NCBI RefSeq assembly: GCF_000245015.1
Contig: NZ_JH600070.1
Coordinates: forward strand, 310,001-374,000
DNA: 64,000 bases
DNA from: Beggiatoa alba B18LD
GTDB lineage: Bacteria > Pseudomonadota > Gammaproteobacteria > Beggiatoales > Beggiatoaceae
Reading direction: 5' to 3'
Below are positions 2,995 to 62,402 of this stretch, in pieces; the stretch's first letter is position 1; every line of letters begins with the position of its first letter. The position numbers were made by a program, and so were the translations under genes. The notes under the pieces were generated by a model. That model had not been told where the DNA came from, did not search any database, and was given only the letters and a program-made list of their open reading frames with translations.

Positions 2995-3067
2995 TTAACC
3001 TGAGTACGGCGAGGTTTTAAGGATAAAACAGAGACCTGCTAGGTTTTTAAAACCTAGCAGGTCTTTT
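2995..3067. repeat. Fold-back repeat fragment with 31-bp palindrome, possible nrdA terminator
   Basis: Begins one base after the nrdA stop with the repeat end TTAACCTGAGTACGGCGAG. It then contains a palindrome at 3033-3063 with 14-bp perfect arms GACCTGCTAGGTTT and AAACCTAGCAGGTC. TTTT follows, so the hairpin could act as an intrinsic terminator for nrdA. The same palindrome recurs at 27823, 58180 and 62333. Confidence 0.85.
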
Positions 3068-5000: not shown

Positions 5001-5250
5001 ATTAACCTGAGTTCGGCGAGTTTCTTTTAAAAAGACAACAGCTTGTCTGAATCAGAATTCACCGAATTTTCAGAATTAGCAGAATTGAAAGGCATGATTC
5101 ACCTTAAATTTTTGGGTTAAGGGTTTTAAATCCTGCTAATCCTGAAAATCCTGATTCAGGCAATGTTTTAATCTTGTCTGGTCAACCCTTTTCGCGTGTT
5201 CCGTCAGACCTGCTAGGTTTTTAAATCTTGCAGAACTTGGGTTACTTTTT
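5001..5250. repeat. Fold-back repeat copy with degenerate palindrome
   Basis: Starts with ATTAACCTGAGTTCGGCGAG, continues with a TTGTCTGAATCAG arm and its counterpart CCTGATTCAGGCAA near 5145-5162. It ends with a decayed copy of the GACCTGCTAGG palindrome at about 5207-5234. It fills the gap between dsrJ and the convergent reductase gene, and probably forms long hairpins in either transcript. Confidence 0.8.
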
Positions 5251-19742: not shown

Positions 19743-19863
19743 GTTTGATTGTCTGAATCAGGATTTTCAGGATTAGCAGAATTAACAGGATTAAAACCCT
19801 AGAACAAAAAAACAATGTGAATGAATCTTTTAAATTCTGCTTAATCCTGATTAAGCTGACAAA
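19743..19863. repeat. Fold-back repeat copy, core arms only
   Basis: TTGTCTGAATCAGG at 19749 and the converging arm AATCCTGATTAAGCTGACA near 19844-19862 flank a degraded centre. The outer AACCTGAG ends are absent. It sits between convergent ntrC and the flavoprotein gene and could terminate both. Confidence 0.75.
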
Positions 19864-27598: not shown

Positions 27599-27892
27599 TC
27601 AACCTGAGTTCTGTGAGAATTTACCCATTAAACAGGGCGTTCAGGCGTAAAATCGCTTTAGCTATTTTAATCAGGATTCACCAGACAAGATTACAACATT
27701 GTCTGAATCAGAATTTTCAGAATTAACAGAATTAGCGGAATTTAAAACCCTTAAACCAAAAAGTAAGATGAATCATGCTTTTTAATTCTGAAAATTCTGT
27801 GAATTCTGATTCAGACAAAAAAGACTTGCTAGGTTTTGAAAGCCTAGCAAGTCTCTGTTTTATTTTATAAAACCTGCCGAACTCAGATTAAT
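27599..27892. repeat. Fold-back repeat copy with palindrome
   Basis: Fills the whole gap between convergent genes. One end is AATCAACCTGAGTTCTGTGAG (in part) at 27599 and the other CTGCCGAACTCAGATTAATTT. Internal arms are TTGTCTGAATCAG (about 27699) and CTGATTCAGACAA (about 27806-27818). A variant palindrome GACTTGCTAGGTTTT...CTAGCAAGTC lies at 27823-27853. The palindrome carries matched changes in both arms compared with the 3033 copy. Confidence 0.85.
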
Positions 27893-33183: not shown

Positions 33184-33358
33184 AAAATGAATTAATATTA
33201 ACTTGAGTTTTGCAAGTTTCTTTTAAAAAAGACAACAGCTTGTCTGAATCAGGATTCACAGAATTAGCAGGATTAAAAAGCGTGATTCACCTGACTTTTG
33301 GGTTTGAGGATTTTAAATTCTGCTAATTCTGAAAACTCTGTGAATTCTGATTTAGACA
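33184..33358. repeat. Fold-back repeat copy
   Basis: Left end AACTTGAGTTTTGCAAG (decayed), inner arms TTGTCTGAATCAGG (33240) and CTGATTTAGACAA (about 33346). It lies between the htpG terminator and the start region of the phosphoribosyltransferase operon. Confidence 0.8.
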
Positions 33359-33381
33359 AAAAAAGGACGGCAGAGCCGTCC
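33358..33381 (-). terminator. Intrinsic terminator of htpG
   Basis: Perfect 7-bp GC-rich stem GGACGGC / GCCGTCC with a 3-base loop. On the minus strand seven T follow, about 30 bases after the htpG stop. The T-run merges with the end of the adjacent fold-back repeat. Confidence 0.92.
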
Positions 33382-38556: not shown

Positions 38557-38920
38557 GCTAACTTGAGTTCTGCGAGTTTTTTAAAAAAGACAACAGCTTG
38601 AATGTTGTAGGGTGGAATAGCGAAGCGTATTCCACCTTGAAATTCTGCAAAAACTGAGCAAAAACAGATTATAAATCGTAGGGTGGAATACGCTTTGCTA
38701 TTCCACCCTACATTTTTTAGAAAAATTCTAAACGGTTTTCGCCACTCGCCGAACTAGCGTAAAGCAACCTGAGCTTGGCGAGTTTCTGTTAAAGAAACAA
38801 TGGCTTGTCTGAATCAGAATTCACAAAATTTTCAGAATTAGCAGAATTAAAAAGCGTGATTCATCTTACTTTTTGGTTTAAGGGTTTTAAATCCTACTAA
38901 TCCTGATTCAGACAAAAAAA
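38557..38920. repeat. Composite fold-back repeats with nested hairpin doublet
   Basis: Begins with AACTTGAGTTCTGCGAG and the usual ACAACAGCTTG segment, then runs directly into the hairpin doublet at 38600-38760. A second partial fold-back follows (ACCTGAGCTTGGCGAG near 38769, TTGTCTGAATCAG at 38815, CTGATTCAGAC near 38903). The layout suggests stepwise insertion or recombination among repeats. Confidence 0.8.
38600..38760. repeat. Hairpin doublet repeat (REP-like), copy 1
   Basis: Two imperfect palindromes built on GTAGGGTGGAATAGCGAAGC / GCTTTGCTATTCCACCCTAC are separated by about 50 bases. One unique flank contains GTTTTCGCCACTCGCCGAAC. A second copy lies in opposite orientation at 52902-53072. 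REP-like elements of this kind are often mobilised by RAYT transposases; none is visible here. Confidence 0.85.
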
Positions 38921-39293: not shown

Positions 39294-39507
39294 ATTAACC
39301 TGAGTTCTGCGAGTTTCTTTTAAAAAGACAAACATTTGTCTGAATCAGGATTTTCAGAATTAACAGAATTAGCAGAATTTAAAACCCTCAAACCCAAAAG
39401 TCAGGTGAATGACGCTTTTTAATCCTGCTAATCCTGAAAATTCCTGTGAATCCTGATTCAGATAAGCTGTTGTCTTTTTAAAAGAAACGCGCCGTACTCA
39501 GGTTAAT
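39294..39507. repeat. Complete fold-back (MITE-like) repeat, 214 bp
   Basis: Best-preserved member of the family. The perfect 12-bp terminal inverted repeats are ATTAACCTGAGT (39294) and ACTCAGGTTAAT (39496). Pairing continues inward through TTTCTTTTAAAAAGACAA / TTGTCTTTTTAAAAGAAA and through TTGTCTGAATCAGGATT / AATCCTGATTCAGATAA. No reading frame of consequence. It lies 4 bases beyond the stop of the beta-propeller gene and probably folds in its transcript. Confidence 0.92.
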
Positions 39508-41993: not shown

Positions 41994-43109
41994 TTAAGCG
42001 TCTTTCGCAGGCAATGTGAAATAAAAAATACTCCCTTTATTTAATTCACTCTCCACACCAACTTGTCCATCTAATTTATGGATAATACGTTGAACAATAG
42101 ATAAACCTAAGCCATGCCCTTCTTCAGAACCTGTTGTTACGCGGGAAAACGGTGCAAACAGTTTCGCTTGTGCATCTGGCGTTAAACCCTTGCCATTATC
42201 ACGCACCCAAAAACGCACGAAACGCCCTTCACGAGTTGACCCCAAATGTAAATAAGGGGGTTTTCCGCCATATTTCAATGCATTGCTTAAATAATTAGCC
42301 CAAACTTCCTCAATCCATTGCGGATAACCAACAGCCTGCTCCCATTGTTCAGGTAAAACAATTTGTCCTTGATGCTCAATAAATAACTGCATCAAGCGTT
42401 GTTGTACATTATTAATAATTTGCGTCATGTCTAAAGACTCAGTTTTAATCTGCTCTTTAGAAATTTTTGCTAGTAACAACAAGCTATTAACAATCTCAAC
42501 CATTTTCTGTCCCGTTTGGAACATGATTTGTAGATAGTTCAATGATTGAGCATCTAACTGATTCATATTTAATAATAAATCAGTAAGTCCTATCATCGCA
42601 CTTAATGGATTTTTTAAATCATGTGCAACCGTATGAGCAAATGCATCTAACTCACTATTTTTATCGCTCAACTCTTTATTTTTTCTAGCTAACTCGTTAT
42701 TATTACTCTCTAATTCCTGTTGTAAACGGCGAATCGTTAAATGCGTATTAATACGGGCTAAGACTTCTTCTTGATGAAATGGCTTAGTCACATAATCGAC
42801 CGCCCCCATCTCTAACCCTTTGATTTTATCGACAGTATCAGCTAAAGCAGTCATAAAAATAACAGGAATATCAGCCGTCTTAGGATTCGATTTTAAATAT
42901 TGACAGGTTTCAAACCCATCAATACCAGGCATCATAATATCTAATAAAATCAAGTTTGGGCGAATAGATTCAGCAATTTGTAAAGCATTCTCACCATTAC
43001 GTGCGACTAATACTTCAAAGCCTTTTTCGCTGAGAAATTCGAATAAAATACCCACATTTGCAGGTACATCATCGACAATTAAAATATTTGGCAACTCTTT
43101 ATTTAACAT
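41994..43109 (-). CDS. Response regulator-histidine kinase fusion
   Basis: 371 residues, soluble. The N-terminal receiver (1-120) has Asp57 in LLDIMMPGIDGFE and Lys in VTKPFHQEEVL. A coiled coil at about 125-155 follows. The HisKA box is FAHTVAHDLKNPLSAMIGL and the ATPase has WVRDNGKGLTPDA and GHGLGLSIVQRIIHKLDG. The receiver is closely related to that of the upstream GGDEF protein, which suggests duplication. It is the second gene of a two-gene operon (32-base gap). The input probably arrives by phosphotransfer from another sensor. Confidence 0.92.
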   Translation of the reverse strand: MLNKELPNILIVDDVPANVGILFEFLSEKGFEVLVARNGENALQIAESIRPNLILLDIMMPGIDGFETCQYLKSNPKTADIPVIFMTALADTVDKIKGLEMGAVDYVTKPFHQEEVLARINTHLTIRRLQQELESNNNELARKNKELSDKNSELDAFAHTVAHDLKNPLSAMIGLTDLLLNMNQLDAQSLNYLQIMFQTGQKMVEIVNSLLLLAKISKEQIKTESLDMTQIINNVQQRLMQLFIEHQGQIVLPEQWEQAVGYPQWIEEVWANYLSNALKYGGKPPYLHLGSTREGRFVRFWVRDNGKGLTPDAQAKLFAPFSRVTTGSEEGHGLGLSIVQRIIHKLDGQVGVESELNKGSIFYFTLPAKDA

Positions 43110-43141
43110 AATTAAAATTCGCTTAAATAAATACTAGATTC

Positions 43142-44131
43142 TTAAGAAGCAAGCTTTTCAAAATCTTGAAAAACCGTTTGATTTCTGCCTTGCTCTTTTG
43201 CCATATATAAAGCCCTATCTGCAACATAGATTAACTGCTCTGCATTAATTCCCAATTTAGGAATGACCGTACTAATACCAATGCTTAACGTAATATAATT
43301 CGAGATTTTTGATTTCTTGTGCTGAACTTGCAAGGTTGCAATGGCTTGATGAATCGCCTGAGCAATTTGCATTGCACCCTCTTGATGCGTATTAGGCAAA
43401 ATAATTGCGAACTCCTCCCCCCCATAACGTGCTGCTAAATCAATAGAACGCTTTACACAATTGCTTAAGGTATTCGCAATTTGTTTCAAGCATTCATCTC
43501 CTGCTTGATGTCCATACGCATCGTTATAATCTTTAAAAAAATCAACATCACACATCATTAAAGTTAAGGGATACGCAACTCTCAACATTTGCGACCACTG
43601 TAGTTGCAAATACTCATCAAAGCGTCGTCGATTAGCGATTTGGGTTAAACCATCCTGACTGACTAAATCGGCTAATTCTTTATTAGCTTTTTGTAAAGCA
43701 ATTTCTTTTTCTTGCAGTTCTCGATTTTTTTTCTGTAATTCTGTCTGCAAATAATGAATTTTTAAATGTGTACTAACCCTTGCTAAGACTTCTTCTTGAT
43801 GAAAAGGTTTCGTTACATAATCTACTGCACCTAGTTTAAACCCTTTTACTTTATCAACAATATCTGTTAATGCCGTCATAAAAATAATAGGAATTTCTCG
43901 ATTTTTTTCATCTGCTTTAATACGACGACAGATTTCAAATCCATCAATACCTGGCATCATGATATCTAATAAAATTAAATGAGGATGGGCACTGTCGACG
44001 ATTTGCAACGCACTTTCCCCATTACGTGCAACCAAGACTTCAAAGCCATTTTCTGACAAAAAGTCAAATAAAACACCCACATTCGCAGGGACATCATCGA
44101 CAATTAAAATAGTTGGAGCTTCTTCTTGCAT
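43142..44131 (-). CDS. Response regulator with GGDEF diguanylate cyclase domain
   Basis: 329 residues. The receiver (1-120) has Asp56 in LLDIMMPGIDGFE. A helical linker at 125-165 follows. The GGDEF domain has the intact active site ARYGGEEFAIILP, the preceding MCDVDFFKDYNDAYGHQAGDE and the later LSIGISTV. It should make cyclic-di-GMP when phosphorylated, like the WspR/PleD type. An allosteric inhibitory RxxD was not obvious before the GGEEF. It is the first gene of the operon with the receiver-kinase protein. The upstream region 44132-44330 is shared with the divergent nuclease gene. Confidence 0.94.
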   Translation of the reverse strand: MQEEAPTILIVDDVPANVGVLFDFLSENGFEVLVARNGESALQIVDSAHPHLILLDIMMPGIDGFEICRRIKADEKNREIPIIFMTALTDIVDKVKGFKLGAVDYVTKPFHQEEVLARVSTHLKIHYLQTELQKKNRELQEKEIALQKANKELADLVSQDGLTQIANRRRFDEYLQLQWSQMLRVAYPLTLMMCDVDFFKDYNDAYGHQAGDECLKQIANTLSNCVKRSIDLAARYGGEEFAIILPNTHQEGAMQIAQAIHQAIATLQVQHKKSKISNYITLSIGISTVIPKLGINAEQLIYVADRALYMAKEQGRNQTVFQDFEKLAS

Positions 44132-52668: not shown

Positions 52669-52826
52669 ATGGGTGAGTGTTTCTTAAAAAAAAACAGTGA
52701 CTTGTCTGAGTCAGAATTCGCAGGATTAACAAGATTTAAAATCTTTAAATAACCTAACGCGAGTACGGCGAGATAATAGATATAAAACAGAGGATTAATG
52801 ATAAAAGCGGACTGGAAGAAATAAAA

Positions 52827-52900
52827 AGTTGTACCTAAAGGAAAAATAGGAATAATGGAACATCACCAAACGCCCATCAGGACTTTCCAAAGGTACAACT
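52827..52900. repeat. 74-bp element with terminal inverted repeats
   Basis: Perfect 10-bp ends AGTTGTACCT and AGGTACAACT, extended imperfectly to about 18 bp on each side (AAAGGAAA / TTTCCAAA). It has no coding capacity. It could be a very small non-autonomous transposon remnant or a structured RNA. It directly abuts the hairpin doublet. Confidence 0.65.
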
Positions 52901-52901
52901 A

Positions 52902-53072
52902 ACGCTAGTTCAGCGAGTGGCGAAAACCTTTTAGAATTTTTCAACTAAAAAATGTAGGGTGGAATAGCGAAGCGTATTCCACCATACGATTTATAATCTT
53001 TTTTTGCTCAGTTTTTGCAGAATTTCAAGGTGGAATACGCTTCGCTATTCCACCCTACAACATTCAAGCTAT
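52902..53072. repeat. Hairpin doublet repeat (REP-like), copy 2
   Basis: Inverted copy of the element at 38600-38760: ACGCTAGTTCAGCGAGTGGC at one end, then two palindromes on GGTGGAATAGCGAAGCGTAT and AATACGCTTCGCTATTCCAC. The spacer between the palindromes (GCTCAGTTTTTGCAGAATTTC, read in part) is also shared. Confidence 0.85.
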
Positions 53073-53200
53073 TGTTTTTTTAAAAGAAACTCTCCGTACT
53101 CAGGTAGAATTAAAAAACGTTATTCGCATTAATCTTTTGGTTTAAGGGGTTTTAAATTCTGCTAATTCTGAAAATTCTGTGAATTCTGATTCAGACAAAA

Positions 53201-53248: not shown

Positions 53249-53415
53249 CAATAAACCGCCTGCTTTGGCGAATCAGCTGTAACATTTGAGCGATTTATAT
53301 GATTGAACTCTCAAGTTTCAACCGCCTGCTTTGGCGAATCAGCTGTAACAGCGCGTCCTCTACGTAAATAATTCCTGTGCGTTTCAACCGCCTGCTTTGG
53401 CGAATCAGCTGTAAC
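53249..53415 (-). CRISPR. Short CRISPR array, three repeats and two spacers
   Basis: 35-bp repeats at 53249-53283, 53315-53349 and 53381-53415, with two different 31-bp spacers (53284-53314, 53350-53380). The last two repeats are identical. The first differs at four of its first five bases, as expected for the leader-distal end. Read on the minus strand, the repeat begins GTTACAGCTGATTCG and ends GCGGTTGAAAC, typical of class 1 repeats. It contains a small internal palindrome (CGCCAAAGCAGGCG). The leader is then expected from about 53416 upward. No cas gene is in the window. An open frame across the array is an artefact. Confidence 0.92.
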
Positions 53416-53790
53416 CCCGACGGTCAAAATAATCACATATTTTTCACTTGCTTGCAAGCCAAAATTTTCACGAAAAATCACCCAAAAAAGTAGAACTCTT
53501 TTGCATATTTCTTGCATAAGAAAATATATAATTAAATCAATGAAATATAAATACCGCTTTTCAAAAAAACTACCCATTTTACGACCCTCGAAAAGTAGAA
53601 CTCTCTTCTTGATTTTAAAGGACTATTCTATTATTCCCGTTTATCCCGACGAGATGAATAACTCAATATTGATACAACTTCATTAAAAAAACAGCAAAAC
53701 TCGCCAAACTCAGGTTAAATTAGGACTCAGACAATTACCGCATATCATGCGACAATACACGCATTTCCCTGATGATTGAGTGCATAACGT
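53416..53790. other. Presumed CRISPR leader and oplAH upstream region
   Basis: 375 bp, very AT-rich, especially 53416-53560, as is usual for CRISPR leaders read on the minus strand. The 16-base string AAAAGTAGAACTCT occurs twice (near 53486 and 53591, in part). A lone fold-back end AACTCGCCAAACTCAGGTT is at about 53697. No gene is supported. Confidence 0.5.
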
Positions 53791-57454: not shown

Positions 57455-57886
57455 ATGCAAATCAGTGCCAGAAATAAATTTACTGGAAAAATCAGCTACA
57501 TCAAGCAAGGGCAAGTCGACGCGGAGGTTGGGGTAAAAATTGCCGATGATTTTGAAATCGTCGCACAAATTACACAATCTAGCGTTGCTCGTATGGGATT
57601 AGCGGAAGGAGTAGAAGTTCACGTATTTATTAAATATTCCAACTTGATGCTGATGTCTGCGGAAGAAGACATGCTATTAAGTGCTCGCAATCAGTTATTA
57701 GGCACGATTACCGCCATTCAAAACGCACGGATTAGTGCGGAAGTTGTCTTAACTCTATTTGATAAATATGCGTTAAAAGCCTTTTTATCTCAAGAAGCGG
57801 TAGAGGAAATGAATTTAAAAGTTGGTGATAAAGTGTATGCGGTTTTTAAAGCGGGCAGTGTGATTTTAGGCAGAGCGAAAGCGTAA
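57455..57886 (+). CDS. Two-domain Mop/TOBE molybdate-binding protein (molbindin-like)
   Basis: 143 residues made of two tandem Mop domains: residues 1-70 (QISARNKFTGKISYIKQGQV) and 74-143 (LSARNQLLGTITAIQNARIS). The paired SARNxxxGxI starts and the VGDKVYAVFKAGSVILG end define the family, which binds molybdate or tungstate in the cytoplasm. AAAGGAG lies 9 bases before the ATG. It probably buffers molybdate, which would suit a nitrogen fixer. It lies 46 bases after oplAH. Confidence 0.92.
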   Translation: MQISARNKFTGKISYIKQGQVDAEVGVKIADDFEIVAQITQSSVARMGLAEGVEVHVFIKYSNLMLMSAEEDMLLSARNQLLGTITAIQNARISAEVVLTLFDKYALKAFLSQEAVEEMNLKVGDKVYAVFKAGSVILGRAKA

Positions 57887-57887
57887 A

Positions 57888-58420
57888 AAAATCTGAGTTT
57901 TGCGATTTTTATAAAATAAAACAGAGACCTACTAGGTTTTTAAAACCTAGTAACCTGAGTTCGGCGAGATTTTTAAAAAGACAACAGCTTGTCTGAATCA
58001 GGATTTTCAGGATTAAAAGATTGTCTGAATCAGAATTTTCTGAATTAACAAAATTTTCAGAATTAAAAAGACAAGAATTAAAAAGACAAGAAAATTAAAA
58101 GAATAAAAAATTATGTTTTTAATTGTTTTTAATTCTGCTAATTCTGAAAATTCTGTGAATTCTGATTCAGACAAAAAAAGACCTACTAGGTTTTTAAAAC
58201 CTAGCAGGTCTGTTGAAACACGCGAATCAGATTCACCAAACAAGATTAAAACCTTGTCTGAATCAGGATTTTCAGAATTAACAGAATTAGCAGGATTTAA
58301 AACCCTTAAACCAAAAATTTAAGGTGAATCATGCTTTTTAATTCTGCTAATTCTGAAAATCCTGTGAATTCTGATTCAGACAAGCTATTGTTTTTTAAAG
58401 AAACTAGCCGAACTCAGGTT
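57888..58420. repeat. Cluster of at least two fold-back repeats with palindromes
   Basis: Contains, in order: a truncated palindrome (57926-57952) fused to a fresh AACCTGAGTTCGGCGAG end; and several copies of TTGTCTGAATCAGG / CTGATTCAGACAA arms (57989, 58020, 58160, 58255, 58370). A complete palindrome GACCTACTAGGTTTT...CTAGCAGGTC is at 58180-58210. The end AGCCGAACTCAGGTT is at 58406-58420. An internal purine-rich stretch (AAAAAGACAAGAATT twice) is a small tandem duplication. This is the densest repeat block in the window. Confidence 0.85.
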
Positions 58421-58438
58421 ATGGTTATCAGTCATGCG

Positions 58439-59776
58439 TTAGCTGAGGAATGAAATGCAAACACCAGCAGTACCACAACCTGCTAATAATATTAAAATAT
58501 TCCATTGATATCGAAACAATCCCCACAAGGCAATTAACATTAAAACCGCAGAAAAACCATCAAGCCTTCCAGACCAGCCTTGTGGGTATAACACGTGGTA
58601 AGTAAAAAATAAGCCCAGTTTGATAATAATCCCCACCACAGCAGCAGTAATTCCTGTGAGTGGGGCAGTAAATGCCCTGTTATTCTGTGTTTTTTCAATC
58701 AACGGCGCGCCAACCAGAATAAAAATAAACGAGGGTAGAAAAGTAAAAAATGTCGCAACACTTGCCCCTAAGATTCCCATCCATCCCGCATGTTCTGCAC
58801 TGACTGACTGCCAACCGCCCACAAAACCGACAAACGTTACTAACATAATCAACGGGCCGGGTGTTGTTTCACCAAGTGCTAACCCATCCATCATTTGCTG
58901 CGCACTTAACCATTGATAATCCATAACGCCCGCTTGATAAATATAGGGCAAAGCGGCATAAGCACCACCAAAAGTTAAAAGTGCAACTTTTGTAAAAAAC
59001 CATGCCATTTGTGATAAAACATGCTGAGTACCATAATAAAAAATAATAATAACAATACTCACCAGCCAAACCAAACAACCAATACTTAACCATCGCCAAC
59101 TATCACGTTTCGTTGTCGCCGTTGTTGTGATTAAAGGCGTATCATTATCAATGACAGTTGGACTAACTTTTGAAGAAAGAGATGGATTAATCGGTAGGGG
59201 TAATACCGCTGTTGGATATAAGCAACTGCCCCAATATCCCAGTAAACCCGCACTGATTACAATAAATGCATAAGGTAGATTAAAAAACGTAATGGCGACT
59301 AATGCACTCAGTGCAATTATCCATAACCATGGCGTTTTTAACACTCTTAGACCTATCCGATAGGCAGCAAAGAAAATAATCGCTGTCACAGCGGGTTTAA
59401 TGCCGTATAAAATCCCTGCGATAACAGGTAATTCTCCCCAACAGATATAAACCCACGCAAATATCATGAGTAGGAAAAATGCAGGGAGTATAAACAGCAA
59501 ACCCGCCACAATACCGCCCCATGTGCCATGCAGTAACCAACCAATATAAGTTGCCAGTTGTTGTGCTTCAGGGCCGGGTAAAATCATTGTGTAATTTAAT
59601 GCATGAAAAAACCGTTTCTCAGAAATCCAACGACGTTGCTCTACTAACTCCTGATACATCATACTAATTTGTCCAGCAGGGCCGCCAAAACTGATAAATC
59701 CCAGCTTGAGCCAATACCAACAAGCTGTTTTAAAAGATAAATCTTTTTTAGGGGTATCTAAGGGTTGTAAAGACAT
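58439..59776 (-). CDS. chrA: Chromate efflux transporter, ChrA family (long-chain type)
   Basis: 445-residue membrane protein with two homologous halves (about 1-190 and 230-445), as in fused ChrA. Landmarks: FGGPAGQISMMYQELVEQRR, the PGPEAQQLATYIGWLLHGTW segment, and in the second half FGGAYAALPYIYQAG with GETTPGPLIMLVTFVGFVGG. It exports chromate by proton coupling in known members; other anions may be the natural substrate. About ten membrane helices are apparent. The start at 59776 is followed by the conserved first amphipathic region. Single-gene unit. Confidence 0.93.
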   Translation of the reverse strand: MSLQPLDTPKKDLSFKTACWYWLKLGFISFGGPAGQISMMYQELVEQRRWISEKRFFHALNYTMILPGPEAQQLATYIGWLLHGTWGGIVAGLLFILPAFFLLMIFAWVYICWGELPVIAGILYGIKPAVTAIIFFAAYRIGLRVLKTPWLWIIALSALVAITFFNLPYAFIVISAGLLGYWGSCLYPTAVLPLPINPSLSSKVSPTVIDNDTPLITTTATTKRDSWRWLSIGCLVWLVSIVIIIFYYGTQHVLSQMAWFFTKVALLTFGGAYAALPYIYQAGVMDYQWLSAQQMMDGLALGETTPGPLIMLVTFVGFVGGWQSVSAEHAGWMGILGASVATFFTFLPSFIFILVGAPLIEKTQNNRAFTAPLTGITAAVVGIIIKLGLFFTYHVLYPQGWSGRLDGFSAVLMLIALWGLFRYQWNILILLAGCGTAGVCISFLS

Positions 59777-62241: not shown

Positions 62242-62402
62242 ATCAGGATTCACTAGACAAGATTAAAACATTGAAGGTGAAAAACGCTTTTTAATCCTGA
62301 AAATCCTGTGAATTCTGATTCAGACAAAAAAAGACCTGCTAGGTTTTGAAATCTAGCAGGTCTCTGTTTTATTTTATAAAATCTCGCCGAACCCAGCTTA
62401 AT
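62242..62402. repeat. Partial fold-back repeat with palindrome
   Basis: Contains only the right arm (AATTCTGATTCAGACAA near 62309-62325), the palindrome GACCTGCTAGGTTTTGAAAT...AGCAGGTC (62333-62362) and the outer end CTCGCCGAACCCAGCTTAAT. It lies between convergent genes and reaches the glyA stop. Confidence 0.8.

Follow-up and report, generated by a model that had tools for sequence, protein, structure and literature searches.

Probable nested mobile palindromes in Beggiatoa alba: an IS982-type outer frame around a core hairpin of the type that flanks GxxExxY genes

The window, that is, the whole stretch of 64,000 nucleotides of Beggiatoa alba B18LD DNA analysed here (contig NZ_JH600070.1, positions 310,001 to 374,000), carries between its genes a fold-back repeat of 214 nt at 39294-39507, the reference copy, with a perfect 12-nt terminal inverted repeat from 39294. 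The segment 39280-39520 folds with an MFE of -99 kcal/mol, against -39.5 +/- 4.2 kcal/mol in shuffled sequences (n=200; z -14.2), so that the perfect 12-bp ends and the nearly end-to-end pairing of the original prediction are both borne out. No ORF of at least 100 aa lies within 39294-39507, and a transposase gene is absent from the reference element, which is built as follows:

39294..39507, unstranded: reference composite, a core hairpin between two IS982-type frame ends
39294..39335, plus strand: left frame end (module E), an IS982-type terminal inverted repeat with an inner stem
39336..39465, unstranded: core hairpin (module C), whose arms consist of 9-bp CAGRATTNN units and have TTGTCTGAA as their tips
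39466..39507, minus strand: right frame end (module E)

Five modules are distinguished: E, the frame end TTAACCTGAGTNCGGCGAG; C, the core arm TTGTCTGAATCAGRATT with its CAGRATTNN units; H, a terminator-like hairpin GACCTGCTAGG...; B, a joint preceding C; and S, the GGTGGAATAGCGAAGCG... hairpin. The reference copy reads E>-22-C>-96-C<-22-E< (E-C-C-E), and a recurrent module grammar, with usual spacings E-22-C, E-19-H and H-5-C, runs through a 454-kb sample composed of the 64-kb window and 20 evenly spaced stretches of the same genome. The 114 core arms of this sample have E (40), H (29), B (21) or none of these (24) as neighbour at fixed spacing, and the core loops, aligned with one of the 39 core copies omitted, are of at least two sequence types, each found in both orientations. 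The repeats had been described as a single family, which is wrong: they consist of no fewer than four modules with separate distributions, joined to one another or nested. They are nested mobile palindromes, with an outer frame from an IS982-type element and an inner hairpin of another type. Related sequence does occur at all ten further positions named for the family, but it consists of different modules, the copy at 2995, for example, having no core. The other copies in the window are:

2996..3063, unstranded: frame end and terminator-like hairpin H, core absent
5003..5244, unstranded: E-C-C-B-H-E composite
19749..19862, unstranded: core hairpin without frame, right arm partial
27600..27890, unstranded: E-B-C-C-H-E composite that fills a convergent gap
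33199..33359, unstranded: E-C-C composite adjoining the terminator-like hairpin of the HSP90 gene
38559..38762, unstranded: E-S-S-E, a frame around the REP module S
38765..38915, unstranded: frame end and core, after the E-S-S-E at 38559..38762
52702..53198, unstranded: core split by IS982 and REP inserts, left arm at 52702 and right arm at 53182-53198
52754-52899: IS982 left-end fragment in the split core, 87% identical
52900-53107: E-S-S-E insert in the split core
53700..53734, minus strand: frame and core fragment
57889..58421, unstranded: chain that starts with a frame-like end, H and E, continues with nested cores and closes with H and E
62253..62400, unstranded: B-C-H-H-E composite fragment

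Homology with the sister species stops at both ends of the E-B-C-C-H-E composite (27599-27892) and resumes at two distant loci; to judge from the two sequences, this composite is an element at a rearrangement breakpoint.

The whole-genome consensus search proposed with the original prediction (4,265,146 bp, three contigs) gave 979 core-arm matches (489+490) with 1 in the reversed control (1+0), and 647 frame-end matches (326+321) with 3 in the control (1+2). A similarity search of the same genome with the reference copy scored 40 of 501 candidates. Across 36 genomes of the family, the number of core-arm matches ranges from 3 to 979, is at least 20 in 25 of them and has 327 as its second highest value, while 21 genomes of other families gave at most 7, the low counts being near the control. 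The frame was counted 42 times in the relative G015 (control 8), 31 times in G016 (control 11) and 15 times in the sister species (control 2), and stayed at about control level in the remaining searched relatives, against 647 in the B. alba genome; a stricter frame-end variant gave 11 in the sister species, 4 in G015 and 0 in G016.

The terminal inverted repeats of the outer frame are those of an IS982-family insertion sequence. At locus L332 of the sister species, located by a frame-end (E) variant search of three relatives, an IS982 transposase in two open pieces lies between the ends TAACGCGAGTACGGCGAG (NF033520 scores of 108.8 and 28.5 bits, the cut-off for the whole protein being 130). 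IS982 is present in the examined part of the B. alba genome only as pieces, in L026 and in L013/L031; the copy in L026 is 92% identical to the sister element, and L031 holds a remnant. The L026 copy is interrupted by an E-H-B-C-C-E composite flanked on both sides by TATGATA (7 bp), and the sister IS982, which lacks this insert, gives the empty site. Among 50 composites, a non-random sample in that those of L001-L030 came from the similarity search with the reference copy, 7 show a 7-bp duplication (at most 1 mismatch) at the ACC...GGT boundary, against a shuffled mean of 1.16 and maximum of 5 (n=300), and 2 of 20 combinations of boundary and length exceed every shuffle. Some duplication of 5-9 bp was seen in 14 of the 50, a count that has no combined expectation. 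An alternative boundary gave no excess in 51 composites (at least 5 bp in 3, with 2.97 expected). Target-site duplications, which had been suggested as a check, are thus present at L026, with its empty site, and above expectation among the composites, and none was found at the reference copy. Given the IS982 ends, the duplications above shuffle and the one empty site, the composites behave as non-autonomous IS982 elements (MITEs), and the suggestion that the repeats are MITE-like holds for the outer frame, since an IS982 element shares its ends and a composite is inserted with target duplication. MITECca01 of Cardinium is also an IS982-family MITE (PMC9769881). Like the composites, it is short, without transposase gene, and has the ends of an IS982 parent in the same genome; unlike it, the composites enclose a palindromic element of a second type that occurs in many phyla, and they chain with REPs and terminator-like hairpins (PMC9769881).

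The exact 23-base arm of the core, TGTCTGAATCAGGATTNNCAGGATT, was found in at least 119 stretches of named genomes from about ten phyla; placed by genome names, these include Bacteroidota, Poribacteria, Chloroflexota, Cyanobacteria and Chlorobi/Ignavibacteria, as well as Kapabacteria, Desulfobacterota, Latescibacterota, Fibrobacterota and Thiotrichaceae. In a profile of 117 arms, of which the first 16 bases were fixed by the search and some arms share a genome, the information outward of the tip drops from 1.13 bits at the adjoining base (a T in 97 arms) to 0.29 and 0.11 at the two that follow, so that conservation ends at the core tip, as expected of the end of an element. For the core alone, neither a target duplication nor an empty site was found. 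The outer flank of cross-phylum arms is T-rich in 26/177, against 87/1441 random positions, and terminator-like in 16/177, against 24/953, the random positions not being limited to gaps between genes; since such flanks are found in a minority only, a preference of the core for terminator T-tracts as targets was rejected. The exact core arm was also seen in five viral contigs (L176-L180).

Hairpins of the core type flank GFQEVIYQ-type GxxExxY genes, both in the B. alba genome and in several other phyla, a link that the original prediction had not anticipated. Arm pairs 200-900 nt apart were considered. When the paired arms are 417-587 nt apart, a GxxExxY ORF is present in 5/5 loops, from four genomes and two phyla (three Pontibacter pairs in two genomes, one Mucilaginibacter and one Fibrimonadales), and when they are 200-293 nt apart, an ORF of at least 60 aa is present in 0/4. 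GFQEVIYQ genes lie beside arms also in Poribacteria, Cyanobacteria, Chloroflexota, Latescibacterota, Chlorobi and Desulfobacterota. The B. alba genome encodes two GxxExxY genes, at L183 and L182. The first sits between core hairpins, with a hairpin loop 90-96% identical to nine dispersed places in the 454 kb, one of them the window core loop at 58082-58143 (92% identical); the second lacks core arms and is flanked by inverted repeats of a different unit (CACGAAA; p 0.005). A GTCTGAAY tip lies within 400 nt of 42/56 GFQEVIYQ genes, on both flanks in 30, against 5/56 at 700-1100 nt, and within 400 nt of 1/11 genes of the LLES type and 0/10 of the others. On the protein tree, many forks of which are unresolved, the labels 'none' and 'both flanks' are clustered (0/500 shuffles as low), and the label 'one flank' shows no clustering (260/500 shuffles as low). 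L174, a false motif hit, was excluded from the tip and tree counts, and 34 of the searched genomes were chosen for holding the core arm, from 40 loci of which several share a genome, L064 was not included and L141 does not figure in the result.

Most of the examined GxxExxY genes, in every clade, lie between inverted repeats, many of these made of units of about 9 bp whose sequences differ between clades. A motif-free test placed 70/97 GxxExxY genes between significant inverted repeats, against 15/309 control ORFs (100-300 aa, from the same loci), leaving 27/97 genes with no significant inverted flanks; an alignment score of at least 40 was reached by 66/97 genes and by 8/309 controls. This final test left out 7 duplicates and 4 short-flank rows. 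An earlier one left out loci with N and flanks under 200 nt, and in a smaller earlier control set 0/9 ORFs were significant. By type, inverted flanks are present in 40/54 GFQEVIYQ, 10/13 LLES, 10/12 double-domain and 10/18 other genes. The LLES-type arms are made of different units (e.g. CACAGAG or CGCAAAG, about 9 bp), and the flanks of the double-domain genes are of sequence other than the core. The double-domain proteins, of about 260-300 aa, were observed in this bacterial family (L200, L201, L203, L216, L219-L223). GxxExxY relatives are also present in 8 plasmid records, of which four were examined and one (L329) has significant inverted flanks, and there were none in the viral contigs or phages searched.

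Matched changes in the two arms, also part of the original prediction, are found in diverged elements of other genomes and not among the core copies of B. alba. In 20 gene-enclosing elements, the mean arm score was 20.8 with the own partner and 8.8 with others (0/5000 permutations), and the own partner was the best of all for 11/20; as arms match their own partner across diverged elements, the palindrome appears to be kept while its sequence changes, although such a match would also be expected from shared ancestry of both arms or from arm correction. Among the B. alba core copies (35/39 usable, 4 with fewer than two units in an arm being excluded) the covariation was rho 0.20, and 640/5000 permutations were as high.

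To our knowledge, the GxxExxY proteins are a widespread PD-(D/E)XK family without a known role. They match the profile PF13366/TIGR04256 (PF13366 122.6 bits, cut-off 22), and a loosely spaced D..ExK pattern is found in 77/77 of them. A structure model built from six sequences (pLDDT 72.6) has SSO0001 as its nearest fold (Z 8.2, rmsd 3.8, 99 residues), followed by lower matches to restriction enzymes and to the Holliday junction resolvase Hjc (1gef, Z 6.3), with a best Foldseek E of 2.2e-3. The model would thus stand nearest to PD-(D/E)XK proteins, and a Z near 8 is only suggestive. No description of a link between core and GxxExxY was found in the open-access literature, subscription papers lying mostly outside that search; an earlier text mentions GxxExxY beside a reverse transcriptase.

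The explanation that we consider probable is that of nested palindromes, in which an IS982 MITE frame carries a core of GxxExxY type that was amplified as its passenger. The parent would be a GxxExxY element, with the nuclease gene between palindromic arms, from which the ORF-less hairpins would derive. In the B. alba genome, the core would have entered an IS982 MITE and then multiplied within it, and such passenger amplification would explain why the core is 3 times more abundant here than in any searched relative. The simplest reading of the 90/114 core arms locked at fixed spacing to the frame, H or B is likewise that the core is cargo of the IS982 MITE. Copies would persist chiefly downstream of genes, presumably because insertion is least harmful there. 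The least certain step concerns the spread itself, in which GxxExxY may recognise and cut the extruded palindrome, be it a cruciform or a single-strand hairpin. GxxExxY would then move the hairpins, and core-rich relatives without a clear GxxExxY gene speak against this. A broader proposal, which is possible but to which we give somewhat less than even chances, is that a superfamily of palindromic mobile elements has the GxxExxY proteins as its enzymes, each clade recognising its own extruded arms, as a counterpart to RAYT/REP. If this were true, one nuclease gene between inverted arrays of 9-bp units would go together with hundreds of ORF-less hairpins, and a nuclease-based counterpart of the RAYT/REP system would have crossed about ten phyla. 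The results place a protein family of unknown function in a genomic context for the first time, tie an intergenic repeat common to about ten phyla to a candidate gene, and mean that ideas on how such repeats arise can be tested with a single small enzyme and the palindrome cognate to it. Moreover, a palindrome riding in an unrelated MITE is a route by which a repeat can multiply in a genome.

It is rather unlikely, though the first alternative to be weighed, that the GxxExxY genes are themselves passengers in palindromes moved by another enzyme (e.g. IS982 or RAYT), the nuclease being inactive on the repeats. The relatives G015, G019 and G025 have 171, 327 and 134 core-arm hits and no clear GxxExxY gene (none, 1 weak and 1 weak match, respectively), which indicates that copies persist without that gene and is what passengers would look like. 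GxxExxY remnants were looked for in L291 and later loci, where there were only two weak tblastn hits, in overlapping loci, read as repeat translation, and none was found in the examined B. alba loci. A core loop of about 440 nt in G025 (L315, about 1500-1980) holds an unrelated small ORF, possibly cargo. Strong inverted repeats also surround two DUF559 genes and one 23S-intervening-sequence-type (four helix bundle) gene (L057:4762-5133, L079:4182-4538 and L071:4461-4850), so that GxxExxY may be one among several cargo or partner genes, and the core does ride in an IS982 frame in B. alba. Against the passenger role stand the GxxExxY ORF in every loop of 417-587 nt, the 70 of 97 genes between inverted repeats, the arm sequences that differ among protein clades, and the clustering on the protein tree of genes with no tip and with tips on both flanks.

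A less probable alternative, indeed an improbable one, is that selection keeps the hairpins at gene ends as RNA elements, be it as terminators or as mRNA stabilisers, with mobility being incidental. Their placement in B. alba speaks for it. No core arm lies inside a called gene (0/114 in the 454 kb, the genes being calls of a simple purpose-made caller) and only one weak E match, with 3 mismatches, does, in agreement with the earlier claim that all copies lie between genes. Convergent gaps hold 64 of the 114 arms, tandem gaps 45 and divergent gaps 3, and 2 lie at stretch ends; counted by gap, a core arm or frame end is present in 30/48 convergent, 19/174 tandem and 2/48 divergent gaps (convergent against the rest, Fisher p 2.6e-14). 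The 21 clusters in tandem gaps lie at a median of 71 nt from the upstream stop and 234 nt from the next start (p 0.019). Both the frequent position between convergent genes and that just after stop codons are therefore as they had been described. The H module, in addition, is terminator-shaped: 57800-58500, with two cores inside, has 2 terminator-like sites against 0.2 in shuffles, both of them H hairpins, and the terminator-like outer flanks of cross-phylum arms, given above, point the same way. On the other hand, the convergent bias is not clear outside this genome, where 103 core loci fall into 42 tandem, 23 convergent, 15 divergent, 13 edge and 10 within a naive ORF, that is, 23/80 placed sites are convergent against 21% of intergenic bases. 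Folding has no strand preference, sense equalling antisense in 17 copies between tandem genes (p 0.55), the B. alba copies lack arm covariation, and the terminator-like hairpin of the HSP90 gene is present in the sister species without the 33199..33359 element, being there with or without it. Rfam gave 0 matches in the window at gathering thresholds. A terminator function, as once suggested, is thus supported in shape only and for the separate H module, the core having no strand asymmetry in folding, and a role in mRNA stabilisation or as regulatory RNA is unsupported by the equal folding of the two strands and the Rfam search.

That the genome's own RAYT moves the core, as a REP/REPIN element, can hardly be right: a RAYT gene is present (C2:3963125; NF047646, 187 bits; the genome's sole match to a Y1 transposase) and RAYTs typically have palindromes as partners, but the 3.3-kb RAYT locus L181 has no core arms, module S flanks the gene instead, and the core has, by eye, no GTAG or CGTC tag; RAYT was accordingly rejected as partner of the core. 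Since S copies lie on both sides of the RAYT ORF, module S is of the RAYT/REP kind.

Among known systems, the REPtrons and TIRtrons of REP/RAYT are described as palindromes that are numerous between genes and whose cognate gene has the repeat on its flanks (PMC3733652). The present repeats resemble them in placement between convergent and unidirectional genes, and module S is of that kind; the core differs from what that text describes in that its gene encodes a PD-(D/E)XK protein and not a Y1 tyrosine transposase, and in that its arms are arrays of 9-bp units ending in TTGTCTGAA, without GTAG tag (PMC3733652). The nearest prior idea is the MITE in hupL of Ca. Thiomargarita nelsonii with its PD-(D/E)XK_2 gene, this MITE being tentatively derived from a PD-(D/E)XK_2 YhgA element (PMC4853749). 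It would belong to the same bacterial family and is tentatively tied to a PD-(D/E)XK nuclease, but the nuclease family is another one, and the comparison with the core is by description only (PMC4853749). The 23S rRNA intervening sequence with its S23 ORF, a selfish insert that spreads horizontally, is similar in having a small ORF in a selfish inserted element, and different in its protein family and in its location in rRNA (PMC4990558).

Some further features of the window were observed. Three 35-nt direct repeats with a spacing of 66 nt, resembling a minimal CRISPR array, are located at 53249-53415. Direct repeats of the sequence TAACTGA have reportedly been found in Beggiatoa and are different from the repeats described here. 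The ribonucleotide reductase large chain encoded at 13-2994 contains a LAGLIDADG domain as an insertion, probably an intein, the intein-splicing match being 32.5 bits, under the cut-off of 35.8. Finally, an adjacent gene pair at 42699-44116 has common long direct repeats, 75-79% identical, as a tandem duplication.
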